In this document: piece after piece, positions 898 through 13,824 of the stretch
Layout: each line of letters starts with the position of its first letter
How positions within the stretch are numbered: the stretch's first letter is position 1
Source of the DNA: a virus
Reading direction: 5' to 3' (one strand)
Length of the DNA stretch: 21,283 bases
IMG/VR virus record: IMGVR_UViG_3300047373_000109
Span: 1-21,283 of that record
The notes under the pieces: generated by a model
What the model was told of the DNA's origin: nothing
The model's input: the letters and a program-made list of their open reading frames with translations, nothing else
The model's database searches: none
Translations under genes and position numbers: made by a program

Positions 898-945
898 GGG
901 GGGACGTATTAATACTTAGTATACAAGGGATTTCCATTCTGTCTA
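898..945 (-). promoter_or_regulatory. Leftward sigma-70-like promoter with downstream CCCCCC element
   Basis: On the minus strand, TAGACA (945-940) is followed by a 16-nt spacer and TATACT (923-918), each 5/6 to the consensus. Fourteen nucleotides further on lies GTCCCCCCGC (C-run at 903-898). The same C-run follows the -10 box by 13 nt in the rightward promoters at 2539 and 13188. It lies in the only real gap of the leftward cluster and should drive the 51-aa, 102-aa and thyX genes. Confidence 0.72.
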
Positions 946-2538: not shown

Positions 2539-2567
2539 TTGACAACTCTAGAACCTATGTGTATAAT
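2539..2567 (+). promoter_or_regulatory. Perfect-consensus sigma-70 promoter
   Basis: TTGACA (2539-2544), a 17-nt spacer, and TATAAT (2562-2567): exact consensus in both boxes and spacing. It is followed 13 nt later by CCCCCC (2581-2586) and TGCTA, as in the promoter at 13188. It should drive the TerS, fibre and TerL genes. The long leader (about 120 nt) contains the palindrome CCTTAAGG near its end. Confidence 0.85.
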
Positions 2568-2693
2568 AGTATTAAGATGTCCCCCCTGCTATATATACCT
2601 ATAAGGTGTACAGGAAGGTAGGACCATATACTTTGTGTAGTAGCACAGCTACGCAGTGAAACATTCCCTTACCTTAAGGACTAGATAGGTTAC

Positions 2694-12196: not shown

Positions 12197-13138
12197 ATGG
12201 CTGGTAACACAGTATCGACACTCGCACTTGCTAAACGTGCAGAAGTTTGGTCCGCCGAACTTAAAGAAATCCTGCGTGACGAATTGCAGGGTATGAAATA
12301 TGTAAAGTGGCTGGACCAGTTTCCAGACGGCGATACATTCAAAATCCCATCACTCGGTGATGCAACTATCAACGACTACACTGAAGATGCAGCTGTAACA
12401 TACGATCCAATCGACGATGCACAGTTCACATTCTCTATCACTGAGTACCTGCAAGCTGGTAACTACATCACCAACAAAGCAATGCAGGACGTGTACTACG
12501 CAAACGAGATCATGTCTCAGTTCGTACCACTTCAGGAACGTGCTTTGATGGAACGTCTGGAAACAGACATCATGGCTCTTGGTGGTCAGCAAACTGTTGA
12601 TGATGCAAACACAATCAACGGTACTGCACACCGTATGCTTGGTTCAGGTACAGGCGGCAAGATTGCTGTTGAAGACTTTGCTAAAGCAAACCTTGCACTG
12701 AAAACAGGTAAAGTTCCACAGAAGAACCTCGTAGCTATCGTTGATCCTTCTGTTGAGTTTGAACTGAACACCTTGTCCCAGTTGACTAACGTTTCCAACA
12801 ACCCACGTTGGGAAGGTGTTGTACGTGACGGTATCGCCACTGGCATGTCGTTCATTGCTAACATCTACGGTTTCGACGTTTACACTTCTAACTATCTGAA
12901 GACTGAAACTGCTGAAACCATTGGTGGCACAACTGTCAACAATGCTATCACAAACATGTTCTTCTCTGCTGACCAAGCTGTACTGCCTTTCGTTGGTGCA
13001 TGGCGTCAGATGCCAGAAGTGGACACAGAGTACAACAAAGACCACCAGCGTACAGAGTTTGTAACTACTGCACGTTACGGTCTGAAACTGTACCGTCCAG
13101 AGAACCTTGCTACAGTGATGACTGCGCCTCTTGCGTAA
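12197..13138 (+). CDS. Major capsid protein, 313 aa
   Basis: Builds the icosahedral shell; an HK97-type fold is expected for this class. Blocks supporting the call are KYVKWLDQFPDGDTFKIPSL (about 35-54), the E-loop-like ITEYLQAGNYITNKAMQDVY, then VPLQERALMERLETDIMALG, and late strands FIANIYGFDVYTSNYL and FVTTARYGLKLYRPENL. The length suits T7-like coats (about 345) and smaller marine ones. AAAGGAATAAG precedes the ATG. Codon use is distinctive: every Arg I read is CGT and no Leu is CTA, whereas neighbours use AGA, CGG and CTA freely, as expected for a very highly expressed gene. A hairpin follows the stop. Confidence 0.92.
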   Translation: MAGNTVSTLALAKRAEVWSAELKEILRDELQGMKYVKWLDQFPDGDTFKIPSLGDATINDYTEDAAVTYDPIDDAQFTFSITEYLQAGNYITNKAMQDVYYANEIMSQFVPLQERALMERLETDIMALGGQQTVDDANTINGTAHRMLGSGTGGKIAVEDFAKANLALKTGKVPQKNLVAIVDPSVEFELNTLSQLTNVSNNPRWEGVVRDGIATGMSFIANIYGFDVYTSNYLKTETAETIGGTTVNNAITNMFFSADQAVLPFVGAWRQMPEVDTEYNKDHQRTEFVTTARYGLKLYRPENLATVMTAPLA

Positions 13139-13149
13139 CTAAAATACAA

Positions 13150-13184
13150 GGGGAGGGGAGAAATCTCCTCCTCTTCCTACTTTT
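13150..13184 (+). terminator. Candidate terminator after the capsid gene
   Basis: GGGGAGGGGAG (13150-13160) pairs with CTCCTCCTCTTCC (13165-13177) around an AAAT loop, giving an imperfect G/C-rich stem with G-T pairs and one mismatch. TACTTTTATC follows. The U-tract is only four, so termination may be partial, letting some transcription into the tail genes. Confidence 0.5.
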
Positions 13185-13187
13185 ATC

Positions 13188-13216
13188 TTGACATCTTATA
13201 CAGTTGTGTGTATAAT
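13188..13216 (+). promoter_or_regulatory. Perfect-consensus sigma-70 promoter for decoration/tail operon
   Basis: TTGACA (13188-13193), 17-nt spacer, TATAAT (13211-13216): exact consensus. CCCCCC follows the -10 box by 13 nt (13230-13235), then GCTAAGG, which carries the Shine-Dalgarno of the next gene. It shares TGTATAATAG and AGTCCCCCC-type sequence with the promoter at 2539 (TGTCCCCCC). Confidence 0.87.
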
Positions 13217-13251
13217 AGACTTAACAAGTCCCCCCGCTAAGGATACATAAT

Positions 13252-13824
13252 ATGGCTAACGTAGAACATTCCTCTCTTACTGGTAGTGCATTGCACGAAC
13301 CTAAGGGTGTAGCTGCTGCTAACAGTGGTGAAGCATACGTTGCTAATGGTTCTGGCAGTGGTACTTGGCAACCTATCCACAGACACCTTGGGGCAGCTAC
13401 TGCTTATTCTGCTACCTCCCCTTACGCATACTCCCTAGACACAGACACTACAGAAAAGTTCCTATCTTTTCCTGTAGACTCTTCTCACGTCACGGGTTTT
13501 ACAGTAGTTACATCTCCTAACCTTCGGTTCCGTTATGATGATGCTACAAGCATTACTTCTTTGATCAATGTAACAATGTCTTCCACACAAGACAGTGGAC
13601 CATCCCACGATGTAGAGTGGGTCTTGTTGAAGAACGGTACAGAGATTGGTGGATCACGAGCAATCAGAACTATCGGTACAGGTACTTGGGGTTCGATTAG
13701 TGTAACTGGTGTTACTTCTATGGTCCAAAACGATTACATTGAGATCAAGACTAAAGCAGATGCTGACAATGTAGATGTAGACTATGCAAACATCTATGTT
13801 TCTATTATTGGAATGAGTGCATAA
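13252..13824 (+). CDS. Virion structural protein, probable capsid decoration/head fibre, 190 aa
   Basis: N-terminus MANVEHSSLTGSALHEPKGV followed by AYVANGSGSGTWQPI (28-42), a style found at the start of phage decoration and fibre-like proteins (xLTGxxLHEPKGV...YVANGxGSGTW). The remainder is beta-rich with DVEWVLLKNGTEIGGSRAIR and a final strand pair DYANIYVSIIGMSA, suggesting a compact beta-sandwich at the C-terminus. No enzymatic motif is visible. It has its own consensus promoter and an AAGGAT SD, directly after the coat gene, so high expression is expected; that supports a multi-copy capsid surface protein. A tail or collar protein is the alternative. Confidence 0.62.
   Translation: MANVEHSSLTGSALHEPKGVAAANSGEAYVANGSGSGTWQPIHRHLGAATAYSATSPYAYSLDTDTTEKFLSFPVDSSHVTGFTVVTSPNLRFRYDDATSITSLINVTMSSTQDSGPSHDVEWVLLKNGTEIGGSRAIRTIGTGTWGSISVTGVTSMVQNDYIEIKTKADADNVDVDYANIYVSIIGMSA

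Follow-up and report, generated by a model that had tools for sequence, protein, structure and literature searches.

Genome context and the three promoters

The window, by which we mean the whole stretch of viral DNA analysed here (a record of 21,283 bases), is a fragment of a Siovirus (Zobellviridae, Cobavirinae), the group of roseophage SIO1. In protein comparison, the major capsid protein encoded at 12197–13138 is 96% identical to that of SIO1, which is itself a Siovirus. Identity is about 90% with three further Siovirus phages, P12053L of Celeribacter and ICBM1 and ICBM3 of Lentibacter, and 56–59% with Veravirus ICBM2, CRP-4, and CRP-5. In complete relatives, the early and the late arm run outward from the terminal repeats until they converge on a bidirectional terminator. 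In the window, thyX (1–408) is found among the minus-strand genes at the left side, and a terminal-repeat region lies inside the sequence at about 2,200–2,560; the contig therefore joins both genome ends. A minus-strand sequence from this region, GTTGTACATACAAGCGGCTACCCCCATACCCCCCC, resembles the ICBM1 repeat. ICBM1 itself has about 600 bases (300–900) at its left end that carry no annotated gene and gave no Rfam match, and a structured RNA is possible there.

SIO1 has been reported to lack an RNA polymerase (PMC6775973); the same paper on the cobaviruses reports terminators, and the word “promoter” is absent from its main text. A search for papers on roseophage promoters or transcriptomes yielded nothing relevant, and a C-tract element was not described in any of the papers searched.

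Judged by their sequence, three sites in the window are host-sigma70-type promoters, each followed by a run of C. Site B stands at the head of the late/structural arm, the first gene of which begins at 2694; site A restarts transcription behind a strong terminator that follows the capsid gene; and site C lies on the early arm, upstream of a small gene (713–868) and thyX. The features are as follows, with the A of a common TTA counted as +1.

2539–2544, plus strand: −35 element TTGACA of site B, with a 17-nt spacer to the −10 (sequence; promoter scan 12/12)
2562–2567, plus strand: −10 element TATAAT of site B (motif search, promoter scan)
2574, plus strand: predicted transcription start of site B, the A of TTA, seven bases past the −10 (judged by the spacing and by the invariance of this A)
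2581–2586, plus strand: C tract CCCCCC of site B, +8 to +13 (motif search, leaders of relatives)
13148–13175, plus strand: intrinsic terminator between the capsid gene (12197–13138) and site A, with a 12-bp stem, −19.4 kcal/mol, z −3.1
13188–13193, plus strand: −35 element TTGACA of site A (sequence)
13211–13216, plus strand: −10 element TATAAT of site A (motif search)
13223, plus strand: predicted transcription start of site A
13230–13235, plus strand: C tract CCCCCC of site A, +8 to +13, followed by a gene at 13252–13824 (motif search, relatives)
940–945, minus strand: −35-like TAGACA of site C, with a 16-nt spacer (sequence; TAGACG in most relatives)
918–923, minus strand: −10 element TATACT of site C (motif search; TATAAT in other Siovirus copies)
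910, minus strand: predicted transcription start of site C, the A of TTA and eighth base after the −10
898–903, minus strand: C tract CCCCCC of site C, +8 to +13 (motif search, relatives)

All three promoter and C-run sequences listed in the initial annotation, on both strands, are present: TATAAT-N13-CCCCCC at 2562–2586 and 13211–13235 (plus strand) and TATACT-N14-CCCCCC at 923–898 (minus strand). The pattern TATAMT-N13/14-CCCCCC occurs three times in the window; dinucleotide shuffles average 0.00 matches, and none of 100 contains any. CCCCCC by itself occurs eight times where 3.67 matches are expected; since the run alone is not rare in the window, the signal lies in its link to the promoter. 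Sites A (13188–13235) and B (2539–2586) have a perfect TTGACA-N17-TATAAT, scored 12/12 with a 17-nt spacer in the promoter scan, and site C (945–898, minus strand) reads TAGACA-N16-TATACT. The predicted start, 7–8 nt after the −10, follows from the spacing and the invariance of the A; counted from it, all three C runs occupy +8 to +13, which corrects an earlier placement at +7 to +12.

Conservation and register of the tract

As the window record holds only 21,283 bases, the motif search of a complete genome was moved to relatives, whose homologous leaders were gathered largely without requiring the C's. Site A was followed in about 70 IMG/VR contigs reached via the capsid protein, site B in about 20 reached via the first late gene, and site C in 12 non-redundant Siovirus copies, most of them found with a pattern lacking the C's (a 13th aligned row is non-Siovirus and was excluded). 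The C-tract feature is real and conserved: it is present at the homologous promoters of the isolates SIO1, P12053L, and ICBM1/3, and it is kept in 27 distinct site A leaders, in most site B leaders, and in 12 of 12 Siovirus copies of site C, where the −35, the discriminator, and the leader differ from those of A and B. The suggestion of a promoter family is thus borne out, and two findings that would have counted against it, a lack of further instances and a lack of conservation, are contradicted by the relatives, complete ones providing further instances.

The consensus of sites A and B reads TTGACA-N13-TGTG-TATAAT-AGTCTTAACAAGTCYCCCC(Y)G, and their initially transcribed sequence is approximately 5'-AANANGTCYCCCC(Y)G, of which the C tract covers about +8 to +13. 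Among distinct leaders of site A, C is found at +8 in 27/27, at +11 in 25/27, and at +13 in 26/27; at site B it occupies +11 and +12 in all 16 distinct leaders, and at site C no position from +8 to +12 departs from C in more than one of the 12 Siovirus copies. Mean information at +7 to +13 is 1.55, 1.34, and 1.53 bits for sites A, B, and C, respectively, against 0.57, 0.65, and 0.55 bits at +21 to +27; the spacer between −35 and −10, at 0.81–1.26 bits, also stays below the initial sequence. Across relatives the tract is C-rich without being an invariant C6, the forms including CCCCCC, CTCCCC (common), CCCTCC, CCACCC, and CCATCC. On the capsid-gene tree, the +8 to +13 string of site A has changed at least 11 times (CCCCCC, CTCCCC, CCCTCC, CTCCGC, CCACCC, CCATCC, CCCCTT), with at least four C in six retained in every copy. 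One site B lineage has no C tract and carries AAGCC in its place, and in three contigs (L023, L046, L067) the site A promoter has been replaced. After the capsid gene, these three show a TTGACA promoter-like sequence and then a hairpin-like stretch, GTGCCCCTGAGGGTGCAT. The intrinsic terminator at 13148–13175 is kept across Siovirus relatives, with the new promoter (site A) directly after it. The site A leaders (13223–13252 in the window, and relatives) fall into two haplotypes, CTCCCC with GGAC and CCCCCC with GGAT, which apparently move between lineages as blocks.

Six bases separate the −10 from the predicted start at sites A and B and seven at site C, and the distance from TTA to the tract is equal in all. 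The distance from −10 to TTA thus varies by one base without moving the tract from +8 to +13, so that its position follows the start region instead of the −10. Leaders extend about 30–45 nt to the start codon at A and C and about 120 nt at B; a fixed distance to TTA combined with a varying distance to the start codon ties the element to transcription start, not to −10 sigma contacts or to translation.

Distribution among Siovirus, Veravirus, and host promoters

Two other Siovirus promoters, one before the portal gene (TATTAT-TAACACATAGC) and one after the polymerase gene (TACAAT-AATCAAACAG), have no tract. Of the conserved CCCCCC element first described, what stands is a tract at a fixed place; the hexamer itself varies, and not every Siovirus promoter carries it. 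Promoters of the sister genus Veravirus, the site A orthologue included, are likewise without a C tract. This orthologue (L008, 28596, and L009, 28083, both minus strand) has another conserved initial sequence, CCTTGGCAGGG. The same two Veravirus contigs also possess a promoter-like sequence opposite early genes (L008, 2650, and L009, 2570, both minus strand), whose start region holds a perfect dyad, CTTGTC-CCT-GACAAG, and resembles an operator.

The Siovirus form of the promoter was found in 59 IMG/VR stretches, most of which are contigs known as Siovirus via the capsid or first late gene, and in no genome contig. Similarity over the full 38-nt query was confined to Siovirus records among 50,697 phage records. 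Host promoters lack the tract: among 385 genomes from the class to which a Rhodobacteraceae MAG belongs, a single one has a promoter followed by N12–14 and CCCCC, and none has it at the control offset. On these counts, together with the absence of the Siovirus form from genome contigs, a host-promoter origin was rejected. On these sequence comparisons, the element is characteristic of Siovirus and not of the whole family.

A possible role in promoter escape

Of the functions initially proposed, control of initial transcription fits best, and a structured 5' RNA tag is unsupported by folding. We favor, at somewhat short of an even chance, a reading in which the C tract is an initially transcribed sequence element that would act at promoter escape or initial pausing, the promoters being close to consensus and the phage having no RNA polymerase of its own. 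The tract would then work on the level of DNA and RNA polymerase during escape: a pyrimidine run and a strong rC:dG hybrid at the escape juncture could cause the initially transcribing polymerase to pause or backtrack, which would set the rate of leaving a near-consensus promoter that is otherwise hard to escape, and output could then respond to Gre factors, to the supply of CTP, or to a factor of the phage.

By nearest-neighbour values, the hybrid predicted for +4 to +13 has above-average strength at all three sites of the window (z −1.4 to −2.0), and at the two Siovirus promoters without a tract it has z values of 0.9 and 0.0. Pyrimidine-rich initial sequences favor the pretranslocated state, backtracking, and abortive release, and N25anti shows efficient abortive release at +11 to +14 (PMC12464699), a zone with which the position of the tract coincides. 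Consensus promoters are often limited by escape, in which case the initial sequence matters, and YG steps pause initial transcription (PMC10911233). A YG step ends the tract in 14/19 A, 9/10 B, and 8/8 C distinct leaders (31/37); with respect to the elemental-pause consensus (G−10 Y−1 G+1), G at −10 is found in 7/8 C leaders and in 0/19 A and 0/10 B leaders. The literature points in opposite directions here: a stable first 10 bp is associated with faster escape in the work of Heyduk and Heyduk as cited in PMC10911233, whereas pyrimidine-rich sequence slows it. Both effects act on the same step, which is why we assign the element to promoter escape, where it may either slow or speed the polymerase.

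The use of bases within the tract bears on the main rival to an action at escape. G is almost never used there in Siovirus, though G's would strengthen the hybrid more; this suggests a base-specific reader, and with C preferred to G there is a genuine possibility that the tract is recognised in DNA by a protein of the phage. The region from −10 to +15 would then be an operator, where a Siovirus-encoded regulator binds TTAANNNNNCYCCCC beside the start and switches three units together, a serious possibility even if on balance an unlikely one. It would agree with the strong base-specific conservation (C, with mostly T and A tolerated), with an element common to three unit heads on both arms and confined to one genus, with the small HTH proteins annotated in Siovirus isolates, and with the exact match, from TGTG through the tract, that sites A and B of one genome can show. 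However, we saw neither a dyad nor a direct repeat that all three sites have in common, Veravirus ICBM2 has an annotated HTH protein and yet a site A promoter without the C tract, and all sites overlap initially transcribed DNA in equal register. Clearly less probable is a tract that serves as a 5' RNA tag, be it through protection of the 5' end, pairing with a G-rich RNA, or binding of a C-specific protein. The fixed distance from the predicted 5' end, and not from the ribosome-binding site, speaks for such a tag, as does site A, where the base at +9 covaries with the base after the Shine-Dalgarno AAGGA (Fisher p 2e-5, distinct leaders), a covariation present in 4–5 of 6 independent pairs with none opposed (sign test p 0.06). 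It is not seen at sites B and C, however, and the two bases are part of leader haplotypes, two in number, that apparently pass between lineages as units (e.g. GGACTAATTGATATG, present in clades far apart), so pairing need not be the reason for the covariation. Nor did folding reveal a conserved RNA secondary structure near the 5' end (mean leader z-score −0.24, 25 clusters); the tract falls in a loop in some leaders and in a stem in others, and a hairpin common to all leaders was rejected.

Very improbable, in our estimate, is a sigma-dependent pause site that would load a phage antiterminator, as at lambdoid late promoters. The promoter-proximal position and the reliance of the phage on host RNA polymerase would suit it, and site C of SIO1 reads AACGAT at +1 to +6, a −10-like hexamer known from lambda PR'. 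Yet a −10-like ANNNT core near +1 is not a general property of the distinct leaders (3/19 at A, 3/10 at B, 5/8 at C), and no antitermination is needed after the capsid gene, as the terminator there has a new promoter behind it. Barely credible, finally, is a C run that is an inherited accident or an effect of composition, with no function. Although C6 alone is not unusual within the window and site B is without the tract in one lineage, the tract is kept at three diverged promoters while the flanking leader changes, none of 100 shuffles reproduces the pattern, information at the tract exceeds that of neighbouring non-coding columns, and a common origin of sites A and B would leave site C unexplained.

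Rfam gave no match in the window, ICBM1, or SIO1. A test of flank complementarity across all C-tract promoters, non-Siovirus ones included, was positive (p 0.003); it is kept only as a lead because it mixes in non-Siovirus sequences and because sites B and C of Siovirus showed no consistent dyad. A comparison by eye found no co-variation between the C tract of the leader and the terminator arm GGGGAGGGG, and pairing of the two was rejected.

Comparison with known promoters

By sequence, the Siovirus sites appear to be of a kind already known, phage sigma70 promoters with a functional initial transcribed sequence; new here is the C tract, whose mechanism we infer. Promoters of the T5 N25 and T7 A1 type likewise combine a near-consensus −35 and −10 with host sigma70 polymerase, and their sequence from +1 to +20 matters; the native initial sequence of T7 A1, however, is purine-rich and allows ready escape, whereas the Siovirus sites have a C tract at the escape juncture that is common to three promoters. 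Lambdoid PR', with its sigma-dependent pause and loading of Q, is likewise a phage promoter that carries regulatory sequence among the first bases transcribed. It differs in its −10-like element early in the transcript, which is not consistently present in Siovirus leaders, in the new promoter that follows the terminator in Siovirus, and in Q and the Q-binding element between −35 and −10, neither of which is known in Siovirus. HK022 put is likewise a 5'-proximal transcribed element that needs no phage polymerase, but acts as a structured RNA, and Siovirus leaders are without a conserved fold. In pyrimidine-sensing promoters (pyrC/pyrD, upp, codBA), a C or U run in the start region ties initiation to nucleotide supply; both arrangements have a pyrimidine run near the start, but theirs sits at +1 to about +4 and the Siovirus run begins at +8.

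Siovirus are marine viruses that infect Roseobacter, and three of their main messages are predicted to start from C-tract promoters, which gives a first handle on gene-expression control in this marine group, which has no RNA polymerase of its own. What is known of how the initial sequence affects escape comes from engineered promoters and from a few promoters of model phages; a tract that occurs naturally at +8 to +13 in three diverged promoters of one genus, and is kept for where it lies relative to the start, would offer a clean test system for such effects.

C6 promoters in other marine phages

TTGACA-N17-TATAAT followed by C6 after N12–14 was found in at least 119 IMG/VR stretches, against 25 in the offset control (N24–26), and about 79 of the matches read are not Siovirus-like. 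Among these are several relatives of T4-like Kyanoviridae and of HMO-2011-type phages, the latter with a terminase that shares 66% identity with HTVC115P or HTVC033P; they often read CCCCCCGG, followed by a TA-rich stretch. As far as sequence can tell, the C6 architecture thus recurs in some marine lineages. Counted by sequence cluster, the non-Siovirus matches come to 16 at N12–14 and 15 at the offset, and C6 was not seen at the consensus promoters read in HTVC115P, HTVC033P, CRP-235, HMO-2011, HTVC008M, Mosig, and S-PM2 (HTVC008M and C48C1 were covered in part only). We therefore claim no independent enrichment outside Siovirus, and a general rule for marine-phage promoters was rejected on the same grounds. 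The G6 control gave 105 matches, some of them ribosome-binding sites before start codons. That the +8 to +13 tract is a dedicated promoter-escape (initial pause) element, which would mark a strong-promoter regulon on both arms and be used repeatedly by marine phages (Siovirus, some HMO-2011-type, T4-like), we hold to be unlikely, if well within reach.

Two T4-like marine contigs (L289, 3583–3631, and L406, about 9434, both minus strand) carry a consensus promoter opposite genes near gp55. These gp55-side promoters have a C6 run in one group and G6 in the other, and could give rise to a small antisense RNA.
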